Source: a virus
Reading direction: 5' to 3' (one strand)
Length of the DNA: 42,395 nucleotides
Virus record (IMG/VR): IMGVR_UViG_3300044951_000691
Span: 1 to 42,395 of that record
Part shown: one piece after another, positions 9,998-34,007 of the stretch
Position numbering within the stretch: position 1 is the first letter of the stretch
Layout: each line of letters opens with the position of its first letter
Notes under the pieces: generated by a model
What the model saw: only the letters and a program-made list of their open reading frames with translations
What the model was told of the DNA's origin: nothing
Database searches by the model: none
Position numbers and translations under genes: made by a program

Positions 9998-10001
9998 TTT
10001 G

Positions 10002-10208
10002 CTATTGATTTAAAAAGTTTAAAATTGATTTAGTTTTAGTGGTGAACTTCGCCACGTAATCAGTAAAATTCTCATCTATATCTGTAAAGATTGAACACTC
10101 GATTAGGTCTTTACTTTCCCGTTCAAATACCCGAACGATAATCACGCCACCTAATGAACTCACCACGTGCAACGTGTAATCTCCCGAATTAATTATTTTC
10201 TTGCTCAT
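10002..10208 (-). CDS. Hypothetical protein, 68 aa
   Basis: A small beta-rich protein (YTLHVVSSLGGVIIVRVFE) with a C-terminal helix. It starts MSKKIINSGD. No family recognised. Its start lies 20 bases inside the preceding membrane-protein gene. Confidence 0.6.
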   Translation of the reverse strand: MSKKIINSGDYTLHVVSSLGGVIIVRVFERESKDLIECSIFTDIDENFTDYVAKFTTKTKSILNFLNQ

Positions 10209-10344
10209 AATATACTTTCTTTAAAAAATCTAAAACACTTATTAAAATTATTCCTCCGCCAATCCAGGTTAAAGGTCCTCCTGGATTTCCAGCCTCTGTC
10301 ATCATTAGACAGACAGCTATTATATTTACGATTATCTTTTTCAT
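10189..10344 (-). CDS. Small membrane protein, 51 aa
   Basis: ATG at 10344 and TAA at 10189-10191. MKKIIVNIIAVCLMMTEAG is a signal-like start, followed by a Gly/Pro-rich link (GNPGGP) and a second hydrophobic span (TWIGGGIILISVLDFL). The ATG overlaps the upstream stop as ATGA. Function unknown. Confidence 0.6.
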   Translation of the reverse strand: MKKIIVNIIAVCLMMTEAGNPGGPLTWIGGGIILISVLDFLKKVYYEQENN

Positions 10345-10625
10345 TTCCTTACGATGTAGCCGTGATAAAATTTTAAATAATCTTCTAAACTTATTGACGT
10401 TACAAATGGGCTGTGACCTATAAAATCTATGAGCATGTCACAATCACTAACTTGGATTGTTTCCAAGGGGTACGGCGTTTTATCTTCGCCAATTATTACC
10501 CAATAAAGGGATACATTTTTTCGTGTCCACTTGTGGACCAATTGAACGTCTACCAAATCTTTCTCCCACGTGGTGCCATCGTAATAGTACCCAATTAATT
10601 TGTGGTCTAATATCATCGTATTCAT
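10341..10625 (-). CDS. Hypothetical protein, 94 aa
   Basis: Beta-rich, with aromatic strands (LIGYYYDGTTWEKDL, VSLYWVIIGED). Coupled to the gene upstream by TAATG at 10625. No family recognised. Confidence 0.62.
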   Translation of the reverse strand: MNTMILDHKLIGYYYDGTTWEKDLVDVQLVHKWTRKNVSLYWVIIGEDKTPYPLETIQVSDCDMLIDFIGHSPFVTSISLEDYLKFYHGYIVRK

Positions 10626-11125
10626 TATGCTAATTTGTTAAGGTTAGTATTTAAAATTTTGTACCCTAGATTCTCTAAGTCTCTTAAGCTTTTGCGTAGG
10701 TGCGTACGTCCTACAATATCCTCAAGCATATCATTTAACAAAACGGTTTTACCACCTCTTTTAAAACTCATAATTCTGTACCCTTGCGCCTCGTTTTTTG
10801 TGTAACAAAGCCCTTTATTAAATTCCTTTTGTAGCCTAGCTTTGTCTTTATTTTCTAGCCACGCCTCAAAAAGTAAATCGATCACGGTGAAAGTTTCGTA
10901 GTACTCCTCTTTATTTGCATCCGAAATACTTTGGCAATGGTCCCGTAATTTTCGCCACTGCTCAAAATTGCTGTCGATTGGGTCCACGTCTGTCGGTCCT
11001 CCGTGGCCATGGTTGTAGGCTATGCCTGACTTGATGCCGTCCAAATAAACGACCGCCTGAAAATTGTTCGTCTCCTCTGAATTCCATTCAGAAAACTTTA
11101 CATTTTTTAATTCTAACTTTTGCAT
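10625..11125 (-). CDS. Hypothetical protein, 166 aa
   Basis: The start MQKLELKNVKFSEWNSEET, the following strand FQAVVYLDGIKSG and a Gly/His loop (NHGHGGPTD) suggest a beta-sheet N-terminal half; the second half is helical. It recalls phage proteins of unknown role. A hairpin lies just upstream (11135-11158) and could influence translation. Confidence 0.65.
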   Translation of the reverse strand: MQKLELKNVKFSEWNSEETNNFQAVVYLDGIKSGIAYNHGHGGPTDVDPIDSNFEQWRKLRDHCQSISDANKEEYYETFTVIDLLFEAWLENKDKARLQKEFNKGLCYTKNEAQGYRIMSFKRGGKTVLLNDMLEDIVGRTHLRKSLRDLENLGYKILNTNLNKLA

Positions 11126-11184: not shown

Positions 11185-11883
11185 TTATTTTACTACAAAT
11201 CCTAATACATCTTTTTTTGCTCGGCCTTTGGCCTTAAGTCCCAAAATTATCGAGCCACTTTCGAGCATCAAATCGTCGGCCTCGTCTCCATCAATTACGG
11301 CCGTGCCCAAATAATTAGTCGGTAAATCTTTTTTGTGGTCAAATACCACGGCCACGGGTGCGCCGTTTTGTAATGCGGTCAGGCAGTCGGCCTCGTTCTC
11401 CTCCGTACGGCTAAAGGTCAATTTATAATTTGTCCCTTTGTATTTTAATACTTTGCCTAGGATTTTAGTATAGTCGTAAAAAACTAAATTTGACAAATCA
11501 TTAAGGATATCCAAGCCCGTTCTATTTTTAACGATTGCAATCAAATCTAGGTCACTAGTCCCGTTCAAACGGACCGCAATTTTTTTGCCGTTTTTCTCGG
11601 CCTTCTTATTTAATAGGATTAATTCCTTTGCGATTTGCTCGCAAAATTGTTGACGATTATTTAAATAGAATTCAGTCCTATTTTTGCGGGCCTCCTGAAT
11701 GCTATTGAATGCGCCACGGCCTGCCGTGAACAAACATGCTAAAATGCAAGATTGCGTAGCATTCGGGCAAAGATTAATTCCTTTGCTGTTTTGTGTGTAC
11801 GGAGACAGATATAAAATATGCGTCTCTAAAAAATTCTTTGATGTTTTTGCGTTGGTAGTTCCTTTGCTAATTAACTTTTTCAT
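11185..11883 (-). CDS. Gp88-like protein with conserved cysteines
   Basis: 232 residues. The block LSPYTQNSKGINLCPNATQ and SCILACLFTAGRGAF, then EARKNRTEFYL and VRLNGTSDLD, matches the mycobacteriophage gene product 88-like family, spread across unrelated phages. The clustered cysteines (CPNATQSCILAC) hint at metal or Fe-S binding, but the function is unknown. The local sequence is richer in GC at wobble positions than its neighbours downstream. Confidence 0.78.
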   Translation of the reverse strand: MKKLISKGTTNAKTSKNFLETHILYLSPYTQNSKGINLCPNATQSCILACLFTAGRGAFNSIQEARKNRTEFYLNNRQQFCEQIAKELILLNKKAEKNGKKIAVRLNGTSDLDLIAIVKNRTGLDILNDLSNLVFYDYTKILGKVLKYKGTNYKLTFSRTEENEADCLTALQNGAPVAVVFDHKKDLPTNYLGTAVIDGDEADDLMLESGSIILGLKAKGRAKKDVLGFVVK

Positions 11884-11914
11884 TTGCGTAAAATTTATAA
11901 GGTTTTTAAATTAT

Positions 11915-12229
11915 TTATTTTGATTGAAAACATAAGCCAAGCCAAGCAAAATCGTAGTAAATTTTTTCCTCAATTTCAATAGGTTCTAAAATATCTACAA
12001 TTGTTTCTAGGTCGTCTGAATATCCTATTTCTATTTTATCTCCATCCAATTTAAGTTGGTAATAATCGCCATTTAATTCAGAAATTAAATCGTTTATAGA
12101 CTCAATAGAAATTAAGGGCATTTCCCATCCGTTCCAAGTTCTTTGTGGATTATGCAATCCAATAAAAGTCTTATTAAATTCAGACTCGTCAAAGTAAAAT
12201 TTTGCAGGTACTAAATTTTCACTGTTCAT
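11915..12229 (-). CDS. Hypothetical protein, 104 aa
   Basis: Acidic, with strands (YYQLKLDGDKIEIGYSDD) and a C-terminal hydrophobic end (YYDFAWLGLCFQ). Separated from its neighbours by about 30 bases on each side. No family recognised. Confidence 0.6.
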   Translation of the reverse strand: MNSENLVPAKFYFDESEFNKTFIGLHNPQRTWNGWEMPLISIESINDLISELNGDYYQLKLDGDKIEIGYSDDLETIVDILEPIEIEEKIYYDFAWLGLCFQSK

Positions 12230-12256
12230 AATTAGTTTTTTTTAAAAGGTTTGAAA

Positions 12257-12487
12257 TTATTTTATGTTTCTATCTGAATAAATAAATGAATATTCGCATG
12301 CGTTGATTTCCTCGTATTCCTTTGCAAGTAAATTGATTACGTTTTGAACTTTGTCGAAATCAAATCGGTTCAAAGGATATCCAATAAACGGGGTAAGGTC
12401 GTAACCGCATGCGTTTTTTAATAGGATTAAATCAGTCAATAGATTACGTTTTTCTGTAGGGGTTAAATTTTTCATAATTGCGTACAT
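12257..12487 (-). CDS. Hypothetical protein, 76 aa; first gene of the minus-strand block
   Basis: Helical protein with NLTPTEKRNLLTDLILLKNA and FDKVQNVINLLAKEYEE. A second possible start, MKNLTP at 12475, cannot be excluded. It is the most upstream gene of the minus-strand block; no clear TAnnTTTG promoter was found in front of it. Confidence 0.58.
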   Translation of the reverse strand: MYAIMKNLTPTEKRNLLTDLILLKNACGYDLTPFIGYPLNRFDFDKVQNVINLLAKEYEEINACEYSFIYSDRNIK

Positions 12488-12588
12488 GTTTTGTTTGATT
12501 GCGTTTGCAAGTAATGTAGAATATTTTAAACCGCAAAAAAAAATGTTAAAAAAATGTTGAAAACTCTAAGGATCAGCGAAAGTGATAT

Positions 12589-12607
12589 AACCTGGGCCAC
12601 CCAGGTT
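12589..12607 (+). other. GC-rich hairpin, possible terminator
   Basis: AACCTGGG (12589-12596), loop CCA, then CCCAGGTT (12600-12607) is a perfect 8-bp stem ending in a short T-run (12606-12609) on the plus strand. The T-run is short, so termination would be weak. Confidence 0.45.
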
Positions 12608-12795
12608 TTGTCCTATAAAAAATTGCGATTCAAGCACGCCAGGGCTGTTTTGGTTTGAAAATTATTGGAATAATACAAGGAAAAAACCGTTGAAAACTTT
12701 GTGTAAGTAATGCAAAATAAATTTGTAAAACTTAAAAACCTAGGGATTTTCGGGCTATGGTAAGCCGTAAAGTACGGGCAATTGCCCCGCAAATT

Positions 12796-12830
12796 TTGGG
12801 CAAAAAATAGGGTAATTTTTGGGCAAAAAA
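12796..12830. repeat. Direct repeat TTGGGCAAAAAA (third copy at 13542-13553)
   Basis: The 12-mer TTGGGCAAAAAA occurs at 12796-12807 and 12819-12830 (spacing 23 bases; both copies continue TAGG) and again at 13542-13553 just ahead of the 13571 promoter. Spacing near two helical turns suits a protein-binding site. Confidence 0.55.
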
Positions 12831-12976
12831 TAGGTCGGCAATATAATGCCGATTGGTAATTAGCTACATTGCTAATTGTATTGTTCGAATTGGGTCGGGG
12901 AATAGTAGCAATTTAGCAGGCCAACTAGATAGATAATTAGGCAAACGTCTAATTGTGCCGTGCGGTCTGTAGTCAA

Positions 12977-12992
12977 TTAGATAATTATCTAA
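12977..12992. promoter_or_regulatory. Perfect 16-base palindrome, candidate operator
   Basis: TTAGATAATTATCTAA at 12977-12992 is its own reverse complement. Related half-sites (AATTAG or CTAATT) occur at 12858-12877 and 12935-12954. A dimeric DNA-binding protein, perhaps the DnaA-like or winged-helix protein of this phage, is a possible ligand; this is inference. Confidence 0.45.
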
Positions 12993-13154
12993 CTACCTAA
13001 CCGTGCCGACGCCGACCCTACAAAAAGCCAAAAATCCTACAGAAAAAGTTTGAAATCCGACCCCCCCTAGGTCGATTAGGATCGTTTTGGTTTGGCCATC
13101 GCTGGCGTAAAATATGGTGGATACCCAACACCCCTATTTTTCTAACAAAATTTT

Positions 13155-22323: not shown

Positions 22324-25300
22324 ATGGCAAGGATAAGTACGTACCCTAATGATACAAACGTAACAGGTCTCGATAAGTGGATAGGCAGCGACGCCGATAA
22401 TTCAAACATTACCAAGAACTTTACAGCCGATGCAGTAGCATCTTATTACAATAGGGTATCAAAGATTGATACAGGGTATTTCTCATGGGAGTTTGTCCCT
22501 GATTTGGCTCCTGCTGTTCAGTCATCAATGACATTTGAGAAAGTAGGTTGGACTAACAATACCATTAACTTAACAGGACTTGGTGGCGTGATTAGAGTAT
22601 CTAATCTAACGCTTGCTAACACTGTACCGGGGACATTTATTGAGAACGAATGGGTTAATAAAATTTTATTAGTTCATATCCCACAAAGCCCTAGTTTATA
22701 CGCATTCTACAGAGTAGATGCGGTAGTTCAAGATGGGTGGTTCTATTTATTGACATTAACATTTTTAGATGGGAACAATAGTGTCATTCAAAGAAATGAC
22801 CCTGTTGCTTTTGGTATTTTCTCTGCTATTGCAGGGACAAGTGGTACCTCAGGCACATCGGGAACAAGTGGTACAACAGGTACTAGCGGTACGTCGGGAA
22901 CGAGTGGCACATCAGGCACTACGGGCACGAGTGGCACGTCAGGAACGAGTGGCACATCAGCAACTAGTGGAACAACAGGTACTTCAGGTACAAGTGGTAG
23001 CTCAGGTACATCTGCAACCTCAGGAACATCGGGTACAAATGGTACAGGAGGAACATCGGGTACGTCAGGTACGTCTGCGACCTCAGGTACAACAGGTACG
23101 TCAGGAACATCCGCAACTTCAGGAACATCAGGCTCATCAGGTAATACCGGTGATAGATATGCGACCACATCAACAACGACATTTACCTTAGGTAATGCAG
23201 GTACGATAACTGTAGGATTGGGATTAGCTTATACAGCAGCTCAATCTATTATCGTTGTTTATGATGCGAGTAACTTTCAAGAATGCGAGGTTATTGCTTA
23301 TAATCCAGCAACGGGTGCTTTACAATTTGCCGCACCAACAAGAACTGCTGGAGGTGGCACATATAGTTTATGGACAGTCAACCTTGACGGTGCTAGTGGT
23401 GGCGATGGTTCATCGGGTACAAGTGGTACAAGTGGCTCATCAGCAACATCAGGCACGTCGGGTACAAGTGGTACAACAGGAACGAGCGGTAGCTCAGGCA
23501 CGAGTGCGACTAGTGGTACTTCAGGTACAACAGGAGTTGATGGAACGAGTGGAACGAGTGGTACATCAGGAACTACAGGTACTAGTGGTACGTCGGGCAC
23601 GTCAGGAACGACAGGAACGTCAGGAACTTCAGCTACATCAGGCACATCGGGTACGACAGGTACCTCAGGTTCTAGCGGTACGAGTGGTACGACAGGAAGC
23701 AGTGGCACGAGTGGCACGAGTGGTGTTGATGGAACAAGTGGAAGTAGTGGTGTAGATGGAACGAGTGGTACGAGTGGAACAAGTGGCACATCAGGTACAG
23801 CAGGTACATCAGGGCGTAATGGTATTGACGGGTCATCAGGAGCAGCAATTGTTAACTGGTATGGTGCTTTTACAAGCACAGTTACACAAACAGTTTCAGG
23901 CGCAAATACAGCCACAGCTATTACATATACTAATGTTGAGTTATCAAATGGTATTGTATTTAGTGGTTCCCAAATTACCGTTCAACATACAGGTATATAT
24001 GAGATTGGTTATTCTCTTCAATTAGAAAAAACATCTGGTGGTTCAGCTGTTGATGTTGATATTTGGTTAAAGAAAAATGGTACTAATATTATTAGAACCG
24101 ATTCTGTTATAGGGCTAGTTTCTAACTCAGCGAAACAATTACCATTTGTATCTATTATAGATAGTGCAAGTGCTAATGACTACTATGAGGTTTACTTCTC
24201 ATCAACAAGTCCTAACGTACAAATAACTGCTATTTCAGCAACTGGTATCCACCCGGCAGCACCTTCTATCATCACCAACATTAAACAAATTGGTGTGTCG
24301 GTTGGATCAACCTCAGGAACCTCAGGAACCTCAGGTGCACAAGGAACTAGCGGTGCTAGTGGTACATCAGGCACATCGGGTACGTCAGGTGCTCAGGGTA
24401 CAAGTGGAGCGAGCGGTTCATCAGGTACCTCAGGTACAAGTGGACTAGCAGGCACATCAACTCGTGTTGAGCAGAACTTTACAGCTACAGCAGGTCAGAC
24501 TACATTCACCATTACAGGTGGGTATACCATTGGTCTTATTGACGTGTACATTAACGGTGCTCGCCTTTTGCCAACTGACTATACAGCGACTAACGGCACG
24601 ACAGTAGTATTAGGCACACCTGCATTGCTAAACGATGCGGTGACCGTGCTAAACTATACTTCTAGCATTGCAGCACTACCTACATCTAGAGATGTGTTTG
24701 ACTACACAGCAACAGCTGCTCAGACAACTTTCACAGTTAGCGGAGGCTACACAGTAGGCTTGCTAGATGTGTATGTCAACGGTTCTAAGCTTACGCCTGC
24801 TGAGGTGACAGCGACCAATGGCACAACCTTTGTGTTGACAGTTGCTTCGGTAGTTGGGGATCAAGTTCAAGCTATCCGATACAACTCATCAATTAATGGT
24901 GTGTCAGGAAGCGGTACGGCAAACTATGTATCTAAGTTTACTGCGAGTGGTACGATTGGGAATAGTAGTATTCAAGATAGTGGTTCTGCTTTGTCATTTG
25001 GTGTCGCATCTACTTTTTTAGATATTGTAAACATAGGAACTGCTGGTACTGAAAGACTAAATATATTTGGAGCAGGTTCTCAATATATAAATATTAAAAA
25101 TACTACAACAAATGCAGATATGTTTGTTGGTATGTCATCAGGACTTGCTGCTGCTTATATTGGTACTGGTAGTTCAAATCCTTTTGTATTTGTAACTGCT
25201 GGAACCGAACGTATGCGGATAAATGCTGATGGCAACATTAGTATGACTGGAACTTTAAATGTTCAAGGAAATTTAATGGGGCAACTTACAGCTGATAATG

Positions 25301-25983
25301 CTCCATTATTTAAAGTTGTATCTGGGGCTTCTACAAGTACAAGAAGTGGTATTGCAATTAAAGATTCTTGGAATGGCAGTACTAATACTGGCAGTTTTAT
25401 GTACTTTTTTGTTGGTACTGGCTCAGGAGAAAGAGAGGCATTGCGGATTACGAATGCAGGAGATGTTTTAATGGGTAAAAGTGCTGAAAATGCAGGTGTA
25501 GCTGGATTCCAATATCGTGGGGCAGCTCCTGGACTTGTTCAAATTACAAGGGATGGTGGCGAGTCTTTACAATTGTGGAGATACACATCAAACGGGAAAA
25601 TGTTAGTATTTTATTATAATGGTGCGGAAGTGGGTTCAATTTCGTCAAATACAAATTCTTTACCATCTGACTTAAACTTCAAAAAAGATATAAGTAATAT
25701 TTCAATAGGTTTAAATCTTGTTAATAAATTAAGACCAGTTCATTATAGACACAAATTAGATGAAGATAATGAGGCTTTATCAAATGGTATTATTGCTCAA
25801 GAATTAGAGCAATCATTATTAGATTGTGGTATTGAAAAAAATACTCTTTTAATGTTGCAACATAAGCCAAATGAAAAGGAAAACGAATCTCAATATTGGG
25901 TAGATTATACTAAAATGATTCCTATTTTGATTAAGTCCATCCAAGAACTTTCTGCCAAAATAACCATCTTAGAAAATAAATAG
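22324..25983 (+). CDS. Giant tail fibre with Gly-Ser-Thr tracts, jelly-roll-like domain and S74 chaperone domain
   Basis: 1219 residues. Residues 1-170 are a probable virion-attachment part. GTSGTSG-type tracts lie at about 171-272, 357-506 and 661-713, separated by a small beta domain (273-356) and a C1q/BclA-like jelly-roll domain (about 510-650, ending in an SIITNIKQIG-like strand). Two similar beta modules follow (about 717-785 and 795-865, each with TTFT-x-x-GGYT-x-GL-x-DVY-x-NG). The C-terminus is an S74 intramolecular chaperone (SDLNFKKDI, IIAQELEQS, then a coiled coil), which trimerises the fibre and cuts itself off. It should bind the host. Confidence 0.9.
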   Translation: MARISTYPNDTNVTGLDKWIGSDADNSNITKNFTADAVASYYNRVSKIDTGYFSWEFVPDLAPAVQSSMTFEKVGWTNNTINLTGLGGVIRVSNLTLANTVPGTFIENEWVNKILLVHIPQSPSLYAFYRVDAVVQDGWFYLLTLTFLDGNNSVIQRNDPVAFGIFSAIAGTSGTSGTSGTSGTTGTSGTSGTSGTSGTTGTSGTSGTSGTSATSGTTGTSGTSGSSGTSATSGTSGTNGTGGTSGTSGTSATSGTTGTSGTSATSGTSGSSGNTGDRYATTSTTTFTLGNAGTITVGLGLAYTAAQSIIVVYDASNFQECEVIAYNPATGALQFAAPTRTAGGGTYSLWTVNLDGASGGDGSSGTSGTSGSSATSGTSGTSGTTGTSGSSGTSATSGTSGTTGVDGTSGTSGTSGTTGTSGTSGTSGTTGTSGTSATSGTSGTTGTSGSSGTSGTTGSSGTSGTSGVDGTSGSSGVDGTSGTSGTSGTSGTAGTSGRNGIDGSSGAAIVNWYGAFTSTVTQTVSGANTATAITYTNVELSNGIVFSGSQITVQHTGIYEIGYSLQLEKTSGGSAVDVDIWLKKNGTNIIRTDSVIGLVSNSAKQLPFVSIIDSASANDYYEVYFSSTSPNVQITAISATGIHPAAPSIITNIKQIGVSVGSTSGTSGTSGAQGTSGASGTSGTSGTSGAQGTSGASGSSGTSGTSGLAGTSTRVEQNFTATAGQTTFTITGGYTIGLIDVYINGARLLPTDYTATNGTTVVLGTPALLNDAVTVLNYTSSIAALPTSRDVFDYTATAAQTTFTVSGGYTVGLLDVYVNGSKLTPAEVTATNGTTFVLTVASVVGDQVQAIRYNSSINGVSGSGTANYVSKFTASGTIGNSSIQDSGSALSFGVASTFLDIVNIGTAGTERLNIFGAGSQYINIKNTTTNADMFVGMSSGLAAAYIGTGSSNPFVFVTAGTERMRINADGNISMTGTLNVQGNLMGQLTADNAPLFKVVSGASTSTRSGIAIKDSWNGSTNTGSFMYFFVGTGSGEREALRITNAGDVLMGKSAENAGVAGFQYRGAAPGLVQITRDGGESLQLWRYTSNGKMLVFYYNGAEVGSISSNTNSLPSDLNFKKDISNISIGLNLVNKLRPVHYRHKLDEDNEALSNGIIAQELEQSLLDCGIEKNTLLMLQHKPNEKENESQYWVDYTKMIPILIKSIQELSAKITILENK
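22834..23139 (+). repeat. GTSG-coding tract 1
   Basis: Degenerate 9-base units coding Gly-Thr-Ser, with occasional Ala, Asn and Gly. Codons vary, so the tract is under protein-level selection rather than only DNA slippage. Confidence 0.85.
23392..23840 (+). repeat. GTSG-coding tract 2
   Basis: About 150 residues of Gly-Thr-Ser or Gly-Ser-Ser units with inserted G-V-D-G turns and an R-N-G-I-D-G end. The longest of the three tracts in the fibre gene. Confidence 0.85.
24306..24462 (+). repeat. GTSG-coding tract 3
   Basis: About 50 residues of Gly-Thr-Ser units with A-Q-G and L-A-G breaks, between the jelly-roll-like domain and the twin beta modules. Confidence 0.8.
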
Positions 25984-25985
25984 TT

Positions 25986-27002
25986 ATGACAAAAATATCG
26001 AATCAATATAGTTTAACCAATGTCCTCACCGCTGATGTAGTTAATGGCAGGGTGGGGGTAAATAATGGCAGCCCAACCGTAGCTTTGGATGTGACAGGGG
26101 CGGGGAAGTTTTCGAATGTTGTAACGGCAACAAGAGGAAGTTTTGCTCCATCATTTATTGCAATAGGTAGTAGTGCGGGAAATGGACAGATTCAAATAAG
26201 TAATAGTGCCAATTATGTAATCGGAGCAGGTACTGATTATGGTGGAATGAGTTTTACTGTAGGAGGAGGCGAAAGATTAAATATACTTAACAATGGAAGC
26301 GTAGGTATTGGAACGAGTTCTCCTCCACATAATTTATCAGTAAAAGGAAGTAGTGCTACGGATATGATATCTTGGACAGACAATGTAAATAATACTGGTT
26401 ATTTGGGTATTCGTGGAGGTGGCGTAGTTTGGATGAATGCTGATAATAATTTAGTATTTGCAACTGCGGCTACCGAACGTATGCGGATTACGAGTGGGGG
26501 GGATTTATATTTTGGAAGTTCTAGTATTACTACCGCAACAACATCAATATATCTTGAAAAAGCAGGTGGAGATATAATTCAAGTTTTTCCATATAGTAGC
26601 GGTTCAAGTGTTTTACAATATTATTATAGACAAAATGGTGCATTAGTTGGTTCAATTAGTTATAACGGAGCAACAGTTTTATTTAATGGTACTTCTGATT
26701 ATAGACTTAAAGAAGATTTAAAAGATTATAATGGATTAGAAATTATAAATAAATTAAAAACTTATAACTTTATTTGGAAAGATACTAATGTAAGAGATTA
26801 TGGAGTAATGGCTCATGAACTACAACAGGTGTTGCCAAATTATGTAACAGGAGAAAAAGATGCTTTAAATAAAGATGGAAGTATTAGTCCACAAGCGGTT
26901 GACTATTCTAAAGTAGTTCCCGTTTTAATCAAGTCCATCCAAGAACTCTCTGCCGACTTAACATCCGCTAAACAAGAAATAGAATTATTAAAAGCAAAGT
27001 AA
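25986..27002 (+). CDS. Second S74 fibre protein, 338 aa
   Basis: Begins MTKISNQYSLTNVLTADVV and carries beta-helix-like repeats of the kind N-x-SVGIGTSSP and TERMRITSGGD. A C-terminal S74 domain has SDYRLKEDL, the VMAHELQQVLP motif, VDYSKVVPVLIKSIQEL and a terminal coiled coil. It lacks Gly-Thr-Ser tracts. Paralogous to the fibre proteins on either side; separated from the first by 2 bases and from the third by 1 base. Confidence 0.9.
   Translation: MTKISNQYSLTNVLTADVVNGRVGVNNGSPTVALDVTGAGKFSNVVTATRGSFAPSFIAIGSSAGNGQIQISNSANYVIGAGTDYGGMSFTVGGGERLNILNNGSVGIGTSSPPHNLSVKGSSATDMISWTDNVNNTGYLGIRGGGVVWMNADNNLVFATAATERMRITSGGDLYFGSSSITTATTSIYLEKAGGDIIQVFPYSSGSSVLQYYYRQNGALVGSISYNGATVLFNGTSDYRLKEDLKDYNGLEIINKLKTYNFIWKDTNVRDYGVMAHELQQVLPNYVTGEKDALNKDGSISPQAVDYSKVVPVLIKSIQELSADLTSAKQEIELLKAK
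26471..26497 (+). repeat. 27-base identity shared with 27486-27512
   Basis: Codes for TERMRITSG in both the second and third fibre genes and is identical over 27 bases, including synonymous positions. A shorter match (ACCGAACGTATGCGGAT) occurs at 25204-25220 in the first fibre gene. Confidence 0.85.
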
Positions 27003-27003
27003 T

Positions 27004-28149
27004 ATGTCAAAGAATACTCAATTAGGAAATTTAGTTAATGGGATATTTGTCGATTCAACAGGACGAGTTGGGGTGGGGACGCAGAGTCCGAATCATCCAT
27101 TAACCGTTAAAGCAGATTCATCAGCAAATGGCATAAATATTATAGCAGAAACAGGCGGTTTTGCACAATTATCATTAAGTAATGCTGGAAATACATTAAT
27201 TGGGAATGCTATTACTCAAGTACCAAATTCTACAAGTTTTGATATGTATTTTAGTACATATAATGGAACTTCTAGAACCACTAAAATGGTAATTAATGGA
27301 GCAGGCAACGTAGGTATTGGAACGACTTCGCCATCGGCACCATTACACGTTTTTTCAACTGCGGCAGTAACGGCTGTTTTTACAAGAGACTTGACTACTG
27401 ATGTATCTTTAAGAATATTATCAGATAATAGCGGAGCTATTTTAGACACGCAAGGTGTTCATAGTTTAAGATTTCAAACAAGCGATACCGAACGTATGCG
27501 GATTACGAGTGGTGGGAATATGTTAATGTCAAAAAATTCAGTTATTGGTATTAATACTGATGATGGTGCTGATGATGGGTATTTAGCTTTATCTGGTGCA
27601 AGTGCTGATGGTCCAACAAGAGGGGGATATATATATTTATCAGGCAATGAAAGGGCATCAGACCCTGGTCACGTAACTATAGGTGCAGGTAATGTTATTG
27701 GAATTGGTTCAGTTATTACATTTAGAACTGCTGGAACTGAAAGAATGCGACTTATTGGTAATGGAAGACTTCTTATTGGAACAAGTACAGACCAAGGTTA
27801 TTTGCTTTTTGTAAATGGAAATGCTGCTGGTACATCTGGTTTTGCAAACGTATCAGATGGAAGACTTAAGAAAGATATTGTACCTATTGAAAATGCATTA
27901 AATAAAGTAAATAAATTAAATGGAGTATCTTTTAATTGGGATAAAGATTCAAGAACTGACTTAACTTTAGATGATAATAATCATTTAGGATTAATTGCTC
28001 AAGATGTAGAAAAAATATTGCCACAGGTAGTATCAACAGGTGATGATGAACTTCAAACTAAAACTATTACCTATTCTGACATTGTGCCCGTATTGATTGA
28101 AGCAATAAAAGAATTATCTAAAGAAATAGAAATTTTAAAACAAAAATAA
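27004..28149 (+). CDS. Third S74 fibre protein, 381 aa
   Basis: MSKNTQLGNLVNGIFVDSTG, then beta-repeat segments (GNVGIGTTSPSAPLHVF, TERMRITSGGN), then a C-terminal S74 domain with SDGRLKKDIVPIENAL (catalytic-type Ser and Lys), LIAQDVEKILPQVV, ITYSDIVPVLIEAIKEL and a coiled coil. It has shared DNA stretches with the second fibre gene and probably provides an alternative or auxiliary receptor-binding tip. Confidence 0.9.
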   Translation: MSKNTQLGNLVNGIFVDSTGRVGVGTQSPNHPLTVKADSSANGINIIAETGGFAQLSLSNAGNTLIGNAITQVPNSTSFDMYFSTYNGTSRTTKMVINGAGNVGIGTTSPSAPLHVFSTAAVTAVFTRDLTTDVSLRILSDNSGAILDTQGVHSLRFQTSDTERMRITSGGNMLMSKNSVIGINTDDGADDGYLALSGASADGPTRGGYIYLSGNERASDPGHVTIGAGNVIGIGSVITFRTAGTERMRLIGNGRLLIGTSTDQGYLLFVNGNAAGTSGFANVSDGRLKKDIVPIENALNKVNKLNGVSFNWDKDSRTDLTLDDNNHLGLIAQDVEKILPQVVSTGDDELQTKTITYSDIVPVLIEAIKELSKEIEILKQK

Positions 28150-28151
28150 AT

Positions 28152-28472
28152 ATGACAAATTTTGCATGGAGCGTATACCAGCTCGATACAGTACCTCAAG
28201 AAGGAAATTTAATGGACGTGGTTATTGTAGTTCACTACGGCCGTACAGCAGTAGACGGAGAATACTCAGCATACTCATACGGAACAATGGCTTGCCAAAC
28301 TCCATCTGAGACAGACTTTACAGCCTACCCAGATTTAACATTCGACCAAGTATGTTCTTGGCTTGATGCAGGATTACCGGTAGCTGATATCGATGCAGGA
28401 TTACAGCAGGATATTGATAATCAAATCAATCCGCCGATTATTGTGCTCCCAATCCCTTGGTTAGTTGAATAA
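28152..28472 (+). CDS. DUF7936-like phage protein, 106 aa
   Basis: MTNFAWSVYQLDTVPQEGN, VVIVVHYGRTAVDGEYSAYS and LTFDQVCSWLDAGLP follow the pattern of small proteins placed after fibre genes in many aquatic phages (DUF7936-like). It may be a fibre-associated or virion protein. Its stop codon is part of a TAATTTTG element that may be the promoter of the homing gene. Confidence 0.72.
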   Translation: MTNFAWSVYQLDTVPQEGNLMDVVIVVHYGRTAVDGEYSAYSYGTMACQTPSETDFTAYPDLTFDQVCSWLDAGLPVADIDAGLQQDIDNQINPPIIVLPIPWLVE

Positions 28473-28477
28473 TTTTG
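28470..28477 (+). promoter_or_regulatory. Promoter -7 element TAATTTTG
   Basis: TAATTTTG includes the TAA stop of the preceding gene and lies 13 bases before the ATG of the GIY-YIG gene. No TTG at a proper distance upstream. Low-to-moderate support. Confidence 0.4.
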
Positions 28478-28490
28478 TTTATTTTTATGT

Positions 28491-29189
28491 ATGGCATACG
28501 TATATAGACATATCAGATTAGATAAACATGAGCCTTTTTATATTGGGATAGCAACTCATTTAAAAAGGGCTTATGATAAAAAATCAAGAAAAAATAAAAT
28601 ATGGCAAGTTATAGTTGCTAAATCTGACTATAGAATAGAAATATTGTTTGATGATTTAACAAGAGAAGAGGCTTTAGAAAAAGAAAAGGAACTGATTTTA
28701 TTATATGGTAGAATAGATAAAAAGACAGGCACACTATGTAATTTAACTGATGGTGGTGAAGATTTTCCAGGGCATTGGAATATAGGAAGAAAAGCATCTG
28801 AAGAAACAAAAGCTAAACTAAGAGAAGCAGCAAAGCATAAACCACCTAGAAGTGAAGAAGGTAATAAAAGAATATCACTTGCTTTAACAGGTAGACCTAA
28901 ATCAGAAGAACATAGAAGAAAGTTATCTGAACATTTTAAAGGTAAGTCTCAAGGTCCTTGGAAAGAGGAACAAAGAAAAAAGAATCTTGATTTTTGGATT
29001 AAAAAATATATCCCAATTGCTCAATATGATTTAGAAGATAATCTTATAAAAATTTGGGATAATAGAATACTTGCTAGTATTGAATTGGGATTAAAAAAAG
29101 ACATTATTAGGGAGTGTTTAAGAGGAAGAAAAAAGGAATATGGAGGTTATAAGTGGAAGAATTATACAACAACCGAAGCTCCTATTTAA
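28491..29189 (+). CDS. GIY-YIG homing endonuclease with NUMOD3 and NUMOD1 motifs
   Basis: 232 residues. YVYRHIRL (3-10) and EPFYIGIATHLKRAY (14-28) form the GIY-YIG core with Arg25, and EALEKEKELILLYGR (60-74) holds the catalytic Glu helix. GRKASEETKAKLREA (99-113) and GRPKSEEHRRKLSEH (134-148) are two NUMOD3 DNA-binding helices. PIAQYDLEDNLIKIW (175-189) to GGYKWKN is a NUMOD1 unit. The gene is very AT-rich and is enclosed by its own promoter element and terminator, so it is a mobile intruder after the fibre operon. Confidence 0.93.
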   Translation: MAYVYRHIRLDKHEPFYIGIATHLKRAYDKKSRKNKIWQVIVAKSDYRIEILFDDLTREEALEKEKELILLYGRIDKKTGTLCNLTDGGEDFPGHWNIGRKASEETKAKLREAAKHKPPRSEEGNKRISLALTGRPKSEEHRRKLSEHFKGKSQGPWKEEQRKKNLDFWIKKYIPIAQYDLEDNLIKIWDNRILASIELGLKKDIIRECLRGRKKEYGGYKWKNYTTTEAPI

Positions 29190-29200
29190 TTAGGAGTTTT
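29177..29200 (+). terminator. Hairpin terminator after the GIY-YIG gene
   Basis: CTCCTA (29179-29184), loop TTTAAT, TAGGAG (29191-29196), then TTTT. The stem includes the last codons and stop of the homing gene, and the T-run is the first part of the following promoter. Confidence 0.65.
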
Positions 29201-29220
29201 AATTGTTTTTAGTAATTTTG
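29197..29220 (+). promoter_or_regulatory. Promoter with an 18-base match to the one at 13578-13601
   Basis: TTTTAATTGTTTTTAGTA (29197-29214) runs into -7 element TAATTTTG (29213-29220), 27 bases before the ATG at 29248. The same 18 bases precede TATATTTG at 13594. A TTG about 20 bases upstream is lacking here, so the shared block itself may be recognised. Confidence 0.7.
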
Positions 29221-29247
29221 TAATGTAAAATTTAATAAACTATACAC

Positions 29248-29643
29248 ATGAAAAAGTATCGTGATCTGTTAGGCTTGGTTCACTACCTTAACCAATCTAT
29301 CGAACAAGGCAAAACTATTGGCCAAAAGAAGTTAACAAAAATTGGTGACCTACTTAAGCCGCACATTGACTCGTACAACGACAAGAGAGAATGGATATTG
29401 TTATCTAACGCAAGTGTAGATGAGAATAAGAATCTTATCGTTGATGAGAACAATGCTTATAAGTATACTGCTGAAGGAGCACACAAGCGTGATAAGGAAC
29501 TAATGGAATTGTTCTTATCTGACTTCGACTATACACCAATACAAATTAACTCACCATCTGAGCTTGACCAATATACATTCTTATATGGTTGGGTAAACGG
29601 AGTAGAGTTTACTATTGAGCCTGAGGAAGAGGTAGAAATCTAG
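29248..29643 (+). CDS. Hypothetical phage protein, 131 aa
   Basis: Mostly helical and acidic: MKKYRDLLGLVHYLNQSIEQ, then GQKKLTKIGDLLKPHIDSYN, ending EPEEEVEI. No family recognised. Driven by its own promoter and convergent with the glycosyltransferase gene, with a 4-base overlap of stops and no terminator between. Confidence 0.68.
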   Translation: MKKYRDLLGLVHYLNQSIEQGKTIGQKKLTKIGDLLKPHIDSYNDKREWILLSNASVDENKNLIVDENNAYKYTAEGAHKRDKELMELFLSDFDYTPIQINSPSELDQYTFLYGWVNGVEFTIEPEEEVEI

Positions 29644-32501
29644 AAGTAATATTTAATAGCTGATATTACATCAACAGCAGTGATACTCCTTTGACATTCA
29701 AATTGTCGAGGAGTATTTTTATTTACGGGGCACCAATCAAAGTCTCCACGGTCGAATTTATGCTCAGGGTTGTTCCAACAGCCATGGCACACGCTCTTGT
29801 TAGTTATGCGTATGCAGTCAAACTCGTGGTCATCTTTGGTGAAGTTACTTATCATCACGACTTGTTTGTCTAATGCCCACGCAAGCCAGCTCAAGCCTGA
29901 GCTAAGTCCGAGAAAAAACTCGCTGTTATATATAACGCTCATTGTGTTCTCAATGCTCACGTTATCTATCTTCTCGCAATTGTCAAATGGGTTGTCTTCT
30001 TTAGACACATTAATCACCCTGTACCCACGTGCGTGCAAATAGTTAATTGTCTCTTGCCACCCTTCTCGTGTCCAAAACTTACAGCCTGCCGTTGAGTTAG
30101 TAGCAATCGTCACATACTTACCATAGGTATTCTTGCGTTTCTTAAACTTTATTCGAGGCTTAAGTTCTTCAAACTCTAGTCCCAATATATTTGCTGCCGC
30201 TTGTTGGAGTGGTATCGTGTTAGGCATGACCGGTTCTTTGTTCTCGTCGTAGAACCATCCAAGATTATACTGCCCTGATATACCGTTCACTTCGGTGCCT
30301 GGGCTTACAAACTCTAGCTCAGGGTAATTAAATAAATGGTTCCAGAATGTTGACACCACCACATGGCAGTCGTGCTTTTCTTTGAACGCTAACACGTATG
30401 GCATCCAAGCAAGAGTGTCGCCAAGTGACGACGAGTCAAATGATATTAATACTTTCTTGTTTTTATATGACAGCGTGCTCTCGTACACGAGCTCATCATT
30501 CTCAAATACCTTAGTTGTCCATTCGGTAAAATATTTCCGATTAAGTTTTACCCACGAGTTAGACTTAATTGTATTCTCGTAATGGCACGTTCCATGCTCA
30601 TCAAAGAACTGAACTTTAAAGTTAAACTCTACAGGCGACTTAAGTTCTAAGTATGGGCCATCAATAAAGTTTTGTATTAATGTCACATCTTGGTCCTCCT
30701 TCTTATTATTCAAGGTATGCTTATAGAAGCCTAAGTATTCAATGCCAAATATTTCTGTTGTCTCATATATTGGCTTCTCATAGTTTGCTTTAATTGTTCT
30801 AAGGTCCGTGTCAATGGGCTGTATATACTTATCGTATATACCACAGTATTGTGGCAAGTTATGAGCAATGATTGGCAAGCCATAACTAATCGCTTCTCTA
30901 AGCACAAGTGGGTTGCATTCCCACGTAGAGTTGAACATAAAGATGTTAGCACCAAACATAAAGTCTGACACATCCTCTCGCTCTCCATGAACAATTACAT
31001 TCTTTGGCAAGTCTTTCATTAATGGCTCCCAATAGTCTTTGAAGTTCCCTGCTTGGTTGCCAACAAAGTGGAATGTAAAATCAGGATACTTTCTTGCTAT
31101 CTCGATTCCTTCTGCTTGGTTCTTGCCTGGTGTCCATAGCCCAACATTTAACACGTCTTTACCCGTTGGTAGAATAGTTCTTTGTTTGTTGTCAATTGGA
31201 TAATTAATAACTTGCTTGTACGATGGCAAACTCTCAAATGTTTTGTAATGATATGGCGTACAGAATGCATATGAGTCAGGGTGGAACAAAGTCTCTTTGA
31301 TAGGATCAAATGCAATGTCATGACAAGTCTCTACTATTCTGTAGTCTCGGTTATTACTATACAACTTAGCCATGATGCTGTGGTCAAACCGTTCAGCAGG
31401 CTCGTGTAGATGGATGATGTCAGGCTTAAAATCACTTATCGCTTTAAATAGCAACGTCTTATCCTCATACAGCGTGGTAAAGTTCTCGCCTACAATATCT
31501 TTTATCTTGTTGCGTTGCACCACATAGTCTAAACTGTAGCAAGTATACTCAACCACGTATGGTGTAATCTTGCCATCTAAAGCTTCGAGTGTCTTAAGCA
31601 CAAATGCAGGCATGCCACCTGTCGATAGGTGTGGCACTAGATACATTACTTTAATCGGACTAATCATCTGAACCATCTTCTCATAGCTTTTCTCTCCATG
31701 GTAGAATAGTAGCCTTTCTTTGCTTGCCGGTATTCTAACCCAACTGCCCATCATGTAATCTTCACCGGTAAATATGTCCATGCTATTTACCCTGTCGACC
31801 ATATCCTGCTTACCGTTCACGTAGATATATGGCAGTCCATCATGGAAATTGTACTTCCATAATAATACGTTTAATATTGTCTCCTCATTGTAGGGAGCAT
31901 AGAAGTCGTTCATGGCAAGCACCACTGGATGCATACACATGTTATACCATTCTTTTAGGAATATGATGCAGTTTCTATTTGCAACAAAGTACCCCGTCTG
32001 TCTGTAGCGTTGTCTGACATATTGGTCTACACCGAACAGCTCGCATGCAGGATGCTCAAGTGTTGTGCTCAGGTCATCTCTACTCTCAGCCCCTCCCCTG
32101 TCGCCAACATGCAAGTAGTCATAGATACCCTCCACAAAGTAGGGGATAGGGGATGACTCATCGAACATGTCGAAAATAGTTGATGCGTATTTAGTTGCTA
32201 CTGAGTCGGAGTCTATGTAGGCTACGGTCTCTGCGTACTTTAATGCATCAGCCACAATGAGTGGGCGTTGGATAAGAAGTTTGTAGATGTCAAGACTTGA
32301 CCTATCGATGTACTCAGTCTGATCCGGGTTAATGGCATCGCAATCCCACCTGATGGTAAAGGTTGCGTTCTTAATCTGCCTATCCGAGTTGAGCATGTAT
32401 ACTAGCGTTGGAATGCTAGTATAGTAGTTTAATGACTGTACGCATGCCTCTACTGTTTCTGCGTATGATTCAGTTGCGTATAATACGTATGCTTGCTTCA
32501 T
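29640..32501 (-). CDS. Three-module glycosyltransferase: GT-A, GT4-like GT-B and TibC/Aah-like O-heptosyltransferase
   Basis: 953 residues. Residues 1-275 resemble a GT-A enzyme with a D-x-D motif in TVAYIDSDSVA (92-102). Residues 283-565 are a GT4-type GT-B: YLVPHLSTGGMPAFV (287-301), HLHEPAE, and the donor motif STWECNPLVLREAISYG (525-541, E-x7-E). Residues about 605-953 match autotransporter strand-loop-strand O-heptosyltransferases (GT9-like): SFDSSSLGDTLAWMPYV (687-703), TNSTAGCKFWTREGW (801-815), GLSSGLSWLAWAL (865-877), and an iron-type four-Cys set C905, C908, C924, C936. On the minus strand inside virion genes, so probably an added gene. Likely target: phage fibre or host surface glycan. 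Confidence 0.9.
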   Translation of the reverse strand: MKQAYVLYATESYAETVEACVQSLNYYTSIPTLVYMLNSDRQIKNATFTIRWDCDAINPDQTEYIDRSSLDIYKLLIQRPLIVADALKYAETVAYIDSDSVATKYASTIFDMFDESSPIPYFVEGIYDYLHVGDRGGAESRDDLSTTLEHPACELFGVDQYVRQRYRQTGYFVANRNCIIFLKEWYNMCMHPVVLAMNDFYAPYNEETILNVLLWKYNFHDGLPYIYVNGKQDMVDRVNSMDIFTGEDYMMGSWVRIPASKERLLFYHGEKSYEKMVQMISPIKVMYLVPHLSTGGMPAFVLKTLEALDGKITPYVVEYTCYSLDYVVQRNKIKDIVGENFTTLYEDKTLLFKAISDFKPDIIHLHEPAERFDHSIMAKLYSNNRDYRIVETCHDIAFDPIKETLFHPDSYAFCTPYHYKTFESLPSYKQVINYPIDNKQRTILPTGKDVLNVGLWTPGKNQAEGIEIARKYPDFTFHFVGNQAGNFKDYWEPLMKDLPKNVIVHGEREDVSDFMFGANIFMFNSTWECNPLVLREAISYGLPIIAHNLPQYCGIYDKYIQPIDTDLRTIKANYEKPIYETTEIFGIEYLGFYKHTLNNKKEDQDVTLIQNFIDGPYLELKSPVEFNFKVQFFDEHGTCHYENTIKSNSWVKLNRKYFTEWTTKVFENDELVYESTLSYKNKKVLISFDSSSLGDTLAWMPYVLAFKEKHDCHVVVSTFWNHLFNYPELEFVSPGTEVNGISGQYNLGWFYDENKEPVMPNTIPLQQAAANILGLEFEELKPRIKFKKRKNTYGKYVTIATNSTAGCKFWTREGWQETINYLHARGYRVINVSKEDNPFDNCEKIDNVSIENTMSVIYNSEFFLGLSSGLSWLAWALDKQVVMISNFTKDDHEFDCIRITNKSVCHGCWNNPEHKFDRGDFDWCPVNKNTPRQFECQRSITAVDVISAIKYYF

Positions 32502-32505
32502 AATC

Positions 32506-32536
32506 CAAATTTAATTAATATTGTATCAAAACCCAA
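32506..32536 (-). promoter_or_regulatory. Promoter of the glycosyltransferase gene
   Basis: On the minus strand TTG (32536-32534), 20 bases, TAAATTTG (32513-32506). The ATG (32501) follows after only 4 bases, so transcription would start at or next to the A of the ATG, giving a leaderless or nearly leaderless mRNA. Confidence 0.7.
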
Positions 32537-32541
32537 TTTAA

Positions 32542-32910
32542 ATGAACATAGAAGTTAGCATCGGAGAGGCTGTAGACAAACTGTCGATACTTAGTATTAA
32601 GATGGAGAAGATTAAAGATGAGTCAAAGTTAGAGAATGTATCTAAGGAATACTATATGTTACTTGACTTGCTTGAAGAAGAAATGTTTACCAACCCTTTG
32701 TATTATAAACTTAAAGATGTAAATAAAAGACTATGGGAGATTGAGGATGAGATTAGAGTTTGCGAGAAACATGGAGACTTTAACTTAAATTTTATTAGAC
32801 TAGCACGTGCTGTGTACCATCGTAACGACGAGCGTGCGGATATTAAAAGACAGATTAATTTAAAATATAACTCCAATCTAATCGAAGAAAAACACTACCA
32901 AGCATATTAG
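32542..32910 (+). CDS. DUF6165-like protein
   Basis: 122 residues: MNIEVSIGEAVDKLSILSIK, then KIKDESKLENVSKEYYML and a helical remainder ending in ADIKRQINLKYNS. This start (V-S-x-GE-x-x-DKL-x-IL-x-IK) is the DUF6165 pattern; members are often encoded in glycan-synthesis clusters. It is divergent from, and 40 bases away from, the triple glycosyltransferase, which supports a joint role. Its biochemical function is unknown. Confidence 0.8.
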   Translation: MNIEVSIGEAVDKLSILSIKMEKIKDESKLENVSKEYYMLLDLLEEEMFTNPLYYKLKDVNKRLWEIEDEIRVCEKHGDFNLNFIRLARAVYHRNDERADIKRQINLKYNSNLIEEKHYQAY

Positions 32911-33422: not shown

Positions 33423-34007
33423 ATGAAGTCTCCTTTTTATTTTGTCATCAGCTCGAAAGATGGCAAACGCTACGACAATGAGCGTAACGGAATTATCATT
33501 TCTACTTCTAAAGAGGACCACCTAGCAACAATGCGTGAGGCTGTTGTCATCTCTACTCCTATTGGCTATGAAGGTCCGATAGAAGAGGGCGACATGGTGC
33601 TTGTTCATCATAACACTTTCCGTATTTACTACGACATGCGTGGTAGAGAGAAGTCATCGTGGAATTACTTTATGGATGACTTGTTTTTTATTGATGACCC
33701 ATATGCCTACAAAAAGACAGGTGGCAGATGGAAAGGAATCGGCAGGTATGTATTTGTTTCTCCGGTTGAGAACGACTACACTGGCATCACTACTGTAGAT
33801 GCAGAAAAGCCCCTTGTGGGCACGATAAAGTTTGCAAACGAAGAAGTACTTAGCCTCGGTATAAACGAGGGCGACACGGTCATATTTGAGCCTGAATCAG
33901 AGTATCCTTTTTATGTGGATGGAGAGAAAGTTTATCGAATGTACACCAAGAATATAACAATCAAATTAAATGAACAAGATAACGGACTTAAAGAAACGCA
34001 TAATTGA
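33423..34007 (+). CDS. Conserved phage protein, possibly two GroES-like barrels
   Basis: 194 residues: MKSPFYFVISSKDGKRYDN, then EAVVISTPIGYEGPIEEGD, MVLVHHNTFRIYYDMRG, and a second half with KPLVGTIKFANEEVLSLG and INEGDTVIFEPESEYPFYVD. Each half has a GD-x-V-x-x-x-x turn like the central part of GroES/chaperonin-10 barrels (as in T4 gp31-type co-chaperonins), but no mobile loop is evident. Proteins of this kind are common just before terminase genes. The GroES relation is tentative. Confidence 0.6.
   Translation: MKSPFYFVISSKDGKRYDNERNGIIISTSKEDHLATMREAVVISTPIGYEGPIEEGDMVLVHHNTFRIYYDMRGREKSSWNYFMDDLFFIDDPYAYKKTGGRWKGIGRYVFVSPVENDYTGITTVDAEKPLVGTIKFANEEVLSLGINEGDTVIFEPESEYPFYVDGEKVYRMYTKNITIKLNEQDNGLKETHN

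Follow-up and report, generated by a model that had tools for sequence, protein, structure and literature searches.

Among described enzymes, the closest systems to the one reported here are the TibC/Aah enzymes, which are bacterial autotransporter heptosyltransferases (BAHT family, TIGR04414). TibC relies on D110, together with T226, K230, R286 and W305, to attach heptose, taken from ADP-heptose, to Ser of its substrate protein; Arg286 contacts the donor adenine and is needed for activity, and the thumb and iron finger of TibC build a dodecamer (PMC4358343). Here we describe a 953-residue glycosyltransferase with a TibC-type module, encoded near a collagen-like tail fibre in a virus record of 42.4 kb (IMGVR_UViG_3300044951_000691 of IMG/VR), the whole of which was analysed and is called the window. 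In our reading, this phage enzyme is probably an assembly line for O-glycans on the collagen-like tracts of the fibre. Like TibC and Aah, the window protein is encoded beside a Ser-rich repetitive surface protein and keeps the catalytic Asp, Lys and Trp, the four-Cys iron finger with the same spacing, and the predicted fold. Contrary to them, it belongs to a separate clade, has Arg286 replaced and the thumb shortened, carries its TibC-type module fused to two other glycosyltransferases, and has as partner a collagen-like Gly-Thr-Ser fibre instead of an autotransporter.

Other known systems share single aspects of this arrangement. In the accessory-Sec serine-rich repeat glycoproteins of Gram-positive bacteria, sequential and partly fused glycosyltransferases build glycans on a Ser-rich repeat, as proposed for the window, even though initiation there depends on GtfA/GtfB with GlcNAc and no TibC module is involved. 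SgtA from C. difficile, whose gene neighbours bclA3, attaches O-glycans to Thr or Ser within collagen-like repeats (PMC7157674). Both this system and that of Bacillus BclA resemble the window in having a glycosyltransferase gene beside a collagen-like protein, with their O-glycans placed on Thr/Ser of Gly-X-Y triplets (PMC7157674, PMC8968730), and the BclA glycan has an O-methylated sugar, anthrose. However, SgtA is a GT-A enzyme using UDP-GlcNAc and unrelated to TibC, its repeats are GPT rather than GTS, and it belongs to spores, not to a phage. Among viruses, phage-encoded glycosyltransferases modify virion proteins of mycobacteriophages, reportedly at the C-termini of capsid and tail-tube subunits (Freeman et al. 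2023, cited in PMC12619734). Mimivirus, as cited in PMC8968730, modifies its own collagen-like protein with sugar, although there glucose is placed on hydroxylysine, the enzyme is a bifunctional lysyl hydroxylase-glycosyltransferase, and the virus is one of amoebae.

The initial annotation of the window had described the 953-residue protein as a fusion of GT-A-like, GT4-like and TibC/Aah-like modules, and structure prediction and profile search of each module bore this out. Module 1 has no Pfam match; its predicted fold is GT-A, of the retaining GT6/GT8-like kind (AlphaFold2, pLDDT 92.3), with Foldseek matches to the GT6 structures 4frl and 1k4v (E about 4e-8), which are retaining alpha-1,3-Gal/GalNAc transferases, and also to glycogenin, and its D97-x-D99 is invariant among the relatives compared. 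Module 2 matches PF00534 (E 6.5e-11) and, in Foldseek, BshA and other GT4 enzymes, with K460 and E528-x7-E536 in invariant or nearly invariant columns. Module 3 scores 268.9 bits against TIGR04414 (E 6e-80; curated cut-off 200) and matches PDB 4rap in sequence (E 2e-50) as well as in structure.

The active site was compared in a table of 75 rows, 26 from phages and 49 from bacteria, of which 26 are classical autotransporter-type. Window residues D695, T804, K808 and W872 correspond to TibC D110, T226, K230 and W305, and the iron-type set of four cysteines previously noticed at 905, 908, 924 and 936 is present, with the 3/16/12 spacing of TibC Cys339/342/358/370. These cysteines are invariant in 75/75 rows, as are the equivalents of D110, K230 and W305 (26/26 phage and 49/49 bacterial rows), and a separate alignment of 23 diverse phage TibC modules also has the catalytic Asp, the Lys and the four Cys invariant. 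A role of module 3 in protein O-glycosylation is well supported by this residue pattern.

The same profile searches bear on a different function, in which the modules would modify lipopolysaccharide (LPS) or some other glycan of the host surface while infection proceeds, so as to exclude superinfection or change receptors, with the linkage to the fibre being that of a host-interaction cassette. O-antigen is a frequent target of phage glycosyltransferases, LPS core synthesis typically involves GT4 and GT9-like domains, the window protein gives weak PF01075 and RfaG matches, and the enzyme genes sit in the fibre region. However, the window protein stays below the family cut-off for GT9 LPS heptosyltransferases (WaaC, WaaF, RfaQ): the LPS heptosyltransferase I model TIGR02193 reaches 24.1 bits (cut-off 185.3) against the 268.9 bits of the TibC model, and the RfaC and RfaQ models reach 15.5-16.6 bits against cut-offs of 437-467. 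In addition, what accompanies the enzyme is a Gly-X-Y tract of Ser and Thr in particular and not just any fibre or collagen, and the same pair is found in bacterial chromosomes, where the logic of superinfection is inapplicable. We consider host-surface modification unlikely.

The fibre had been described as carrying about 300 residues of which some two in three are Ser or Thr. This length proved about right, since three tracts add up to 323 residues, but their composition was overstated, as 181 residues are Ser or Thr (50-61% per tract). The tracts are a collagen Gly-X-Y repeat (PF01391, E 8e-34), with Thr at X in 59 and Ser at Y in 58 of 77 strict triplets, and no Pro. Thus, the window combines a hydroxyl-bearing Gly-X-Y repeat and a linked glycosyltransferase gene, as BclA/SgtA-type systems do. 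Two other fibres are encoded between the genes for the tract fibre and the enzyme and, together with the capsid and tail-tube glycosylation known from mycobacteriophages (Freeman et al. 2023, as cited in PMC12619734), they would allow the enzyme to act mainly on the capsid or another fibre, with the tract as one correlate. In phages and bacteria alike it is nevertheless the tract that goes with the enzyme, and another virion target is the least probable of the alternatives weighed here.

The proposal that the fibre tracts are substrates of the enzyme could be put at risk beforehand by looking for related phages with the enzyme and no Ser/Thr-rich fibre. When phage records were surveyed for such co-occurrence, with (G[ST][ST])5 as the definition of a tract, the proposal mostly survived. 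A tract is present in 34 of the 48 records with a relative of the TibC module and absent from 14, 10 of which have less than 5 kb of sequence after the enzyme gene; one of these, L032, has short Gly-Thr-Ser stretches in the portion read. Where the record continues for at least 6 kb beyond the TibC-relative gene, the tract is found in 29/33 cases, and in all 27 measured loci the tract and enzyme genes are convergent and 466-3933 bp apart. The association also holds in the other direction. Among 50 long tract-bearing records picked by DNA pattern alone, 24 have a TibC relative, compared to 1 of 50 controls (Fisher p = 5e-8), these controls being records with a GPX-type collagen pattern plus three unselected ones; since the GPX pattern reads alike on both strands, a part of these contigs may have been selected for GC richness and not for collagen. 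This set was used instead of an earlier random-contig control (16-base pattern), which comprised 7 contigs only. The one control record with a TibC relative has a Gly-Ser/Thr-Ser tract, and no other control does.

Within the terminase clade of the window, which has 33 relatives, the tract is present in three of the four enzyme-positive members, the fourth being a 12-kb fragment, and in 0/29 enzyme-negative ones (p = 7e-4). One relative, MW202828, keeps the order M15 peptidase, fibre, GroES-like and terminase. Its fibre at the same site is homologous in the N-terminus and an inner domain and has no tract, and the block of enzyme and DUF6165 genes is missing as well. In the isolate Microcystis phage Mel-JY01, with a genome of 190 kb, a TibC module annotated as methyltransferase FkbM lies between the only two tract regions, and all 43 tract matches fall at 0.1-9.7 kb of the genome. 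In the huge phage LR756501, the tract is 5-7 kb from the TibC module.

To find bacterial relatives, the phage TibC alignment was run against 84,980 species genomes. The nearest are from Methylococcaceae, Acidiferrobacterales, Arenicellales and other Proteobacteria (including Methylobacter and Methylomicrobium), and their enzymes are mostly encoded within ~2 kb of small proteins, predicted to be exported, that have signal- or lipoprotein-like N-termini and whose repeats are purely (GTS)n or (GSS)n. In locus L441, for instance, the tract protein (11202-11912) adjoins the enzyme (10001-11086), and likewise in L433, L465, L428 and L440; pairs of this kind were also seen in L426, L427, L429, L435 and L442, with DUF6502 preceding the enzyme in L429 and L433. 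A strict pattern scan of 13 such genomes (~52 Mb) placed 108 of 122 tract matches inside the ~21-kb enzyme locus. More distant bacterial relatives adjoin long Ser/Thr-rich autotransporter-like proteins. The pairing in Methylococcaceae and other Proteobacteria is apparently undescribed, and the open-access literature searched yielded nothing relevant on TibC in phages, Gly-Thr-Ser repeats or DUF6165.

In an unrooted tree of the 75 modules, the 26 autotransporter-type rows form one fully supported clade, none of them with a tract. This clade includes no phage row and none of the 15 tract-linked bacterial rows. Whereas the BAHT enzymes have an adjacent autotransporter passenger, the partner in the window is the collagen-like fibre, on a branch outside the autotransporter clade. 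This branch is best described as a second TibC-type subfamily, possibly of single origin. The best reading of these comparisons is a TibC-like subfamily common to phages and bacteria and linked to Gly-[Thr/Ser]-Ser repeats, not to autotransporters.

Mere hitch-hiking, in which tract fibre and glycosyltransferase move as one tail cassette with no enzyme-substrate relation, would fit the close linkage (0.5-3.9 kb), the convergent orientation and the many tracts without enzyme. It does not account for the bacterial loci, whose quite different, non-fibre proteins have only the repeat in common with the phage fibres, nor for the variation in layout and module fusion between lineages or for the GPX-collagen records without the enzyme, and we regard it as highly improbable. 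Since many unrelated phages, and bacteria too, have the enzyme together with the repeat, the enzyme very probably decorates the fibre with sugars. The central proposal of the initial annotation thereby gains support from the controlled co-occurrence, the conserved convergent layout, the joint absence in sister phages and the independent bacterial pairing.

Several observations count against the enzyme being such a decorator of the tracts, or against its close likeness to TibC. As regards the pairing, no tract was found in L027 and L038, which extend 6.4 and 8.3 kb past the enzyme, nor in L050 and L053, which are distant split forms on 19-kb fragments; all four are fragments and weak exceptions. 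In LR756504, no tract lies within 20 kb of the TibC module. Furthermore, most records are fragments, and those within one phage clade are non-independent. Conversely, in 26 of the 50 tract records even a profile search detects no TibC relative, most of these records having no GT4 either, and thus the tract can exist without an enzyme of the window type. As regards the active site, TibC R286 corresponds to T853 in the window, and this Arg, kept in 26/26 classical rows, is kept in 6/26 and replaced in 20/26 phage rows. The thumb segment, 44 residues long in every one of the 26 classical rows, is reduced to 34 in the window, and the region of F265/V266 is missing.

These differences set limits on the analogy. 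A tract that requires the enzyme is ruled out by the enzyme-free half of tract records, and a classical dodecameric BAHT is ruled out for the window by the short thumb and the changed Arg286. A TibC-like ring is unlikely and, given the replacement of Arg286 by Thr, the sugar need not be ADP-heptose. The initial annotation pointed out that TibC/Aah enzymes add heptose to Ser of autotransporters. For the window, membership of a Ser-glycosylating family is backed by TIGR04414 and the catalytic residues, and heptose from an ADP donor is the less certain part. Enzyme-free tract fibres may be unmodified, or handled by another enzyme, perhaps supplied by the host. Serine content does not mark the enzyme-bearing tracts, as enzyme-free ones are slightly richer in Ser. 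Across the series L062-L181, about half of the phage records with long Gly-Thr/Ser-Ser tracts are without any TibC relative.

According to the mechanism that we propose, the fibres, being made in the cytoplasm, would be within reach of such an enzyme. The TibC-type module would first put a sugar, by homology most likely heptose, from a nucleotide-activated donor onto the Ser at position Y of the Gly-Thr-Ser triplets in a fibre that is still cytoplasmic. Elongation of the glycan would fall to the fused GT4 module, followed, presumably, by the GT-A module, and many relatives have an N-terminal methyltransferase that would cap the glycan. The resulting glycan-coated shaft might stabilise a Pro-free triple helix, shield it from proteases, or alter adsorption. 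A more far-reaching version would see in these enzymes an undescribed TibC-like subfamily dedicated to Gly-[Thr/Ser]-Ser repeats, with a changed donor and oligomer, whose phage members form lines of three or four modules (methyltransferase, GT-A, GT4, TibC) building complex capped shaft glycans; for this version we find the arguments evenly balanced.

Relatives of the window glycosyltransferase are encoded in 60 IMG/VR loci, ~45 of them with all three modules, fused or in two ORFs (open reading frames), and the remaining ones with part of the protein only or with more distant module sets. The modules occur in other fusions too. Many of the larger relatives are extended at the N-terminus; in the proteins scanned the extension is a methyltransferase (PF13489, or PF05050 for FkbM), giving the order methyltransferase, GT-A, GT4, TibC. 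In L080:3907-8268, L028:5864-9409, L050:518-2707 and L054:851-2809, the glycosyltransferase modules are joined to, or have as neighbours, methyltransferase domains (FkbM, Methyltransf_23/24), which suggests methylated glycans in such relatives.

The fibre gene, the minus-strand glycosyltransferase gene and the divergent DUF6165-like gene are all located where they had been reported (Table 1), with 3,657 bp (some 3.7 kb, as claimed) from fibre stop to glycosyltransferase stop and a gap of 40 bp between the two divergent genes. The DUF6165 gene, originally considered a partner of the enzyme, is a frequent neighbour, found beside ~60% of related glycosyltransferase loci, but not a constant one. 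It is missing beside many related enzymes, and one relative (L235) occurs in an enzyme-negative record, which excludes it as an obligate partner; none was found in the bacterial loci searched.

Table 1. Features of the fibre and glycosyltransferase region of the window.
Feature	Position	Strand	Evidence
Tail-fibre protein, 1219 aa, collagen-like Gly-Thr-Ser tracts and C-terminal S74 intramolecular chaperone	22324-25983	+	PF01391, PF13884, tail-fibre PHROGs
Fibre N-terminal 41 residues, probable virion attachment	22324-22446	+	46-54% identity over 41 aa to MW202828 / Flavobacterium elemo phage fibres
Gly-Thr-Ser tract 1, residues 171-280, 61% S+T	22834-23163	+	
Gly-Thr-Ser tract 2, residues 361-517, 55% S+T	23404-23874	+	
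Gly-Thr-Ser tract 3, residues 661-716, 50% S+T	24304-24471	+	
Two more S74-chaperone fibre proteins, without tracts	25986-27002; 27004-28149	+	PF13884 E 3.5e-12; 1.3e-18
DUF7936 gene between S74 fibres and endonuclease gene	28152-28472	+	PF25590 90.9 bits
GIY-YIG/NUMOD3 homing-endonuclease-like gene, between fibre genes and glycosyltransferase	28491-29189	+	
Triple-module glycosyltransferase, 953 aa	29640-32501	-	ORF, domain and profile matches; conserved in ~45 IMG/VR loci
Module 3, TibC/Aah-type protein O-glycosyltransferase, residues 605-953	29643-30689	-	TIGR04414, PDB 4rap, residue table
Module 2, GT4 (GT-B), residues 283-565	30807-31655	-	PF00534, Foldseek, K460 and E528-x7-E536 kept
Module 1, GT-A fold, residues 1-282	31656-32501	-	AlphaFold2, Foldseek, invariant D97-x-D99
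DUF6165 (PF19662) protein, accessory, divergent neighbour	32542-32910	+	PF19662 57.9 bits, cut-off 27

The terminase and portal of the window match podovirus-type PHROGs. The terminase is 67% identical to that of MW202828 and ~45% identical to those of Flavobacterium elemo phages, a kinship that makes a Bacteroidota host likely. A GroEL-type chaperonin (PF00118; 13946-15496, plus strand) and a GroES-like protein (33423-34007, plus strand) are encoded in the window and also by MW202828 and the elemo phages; this pair is possibly needed for the folding of very large fibre or tail proteins. Coding direction and GC skew switch near 12-13 kb (11884-13113), separating a replication arm on the minus strand from a structural arm on the plus strand.

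Virion glycosylation is known from few phages. Gly-Thr-Ser collagen-like fibres, on the other hand, are common in environmental phages, and both the stability of their Pro-free triple helix and their Thr/Ser bias are unexplained. The linked enzyme family would provide a testable answer for a large share of these fibres and predicts the modified residue, with Microcystis phage Mel-JY01 and Methylobacter luteus as cultured test cases. The name of NCBIfam TIGR04414, autotransporter heptosyltransferase, is moreover in use for a second branch with another apparent substrate. The comparisons presented here support the view that TibC-type protein glycosylation has been transferred to the collagen-like Gly-Thr-Ser repeats of phage fibres and of bacterial proteins predicted to be exported.

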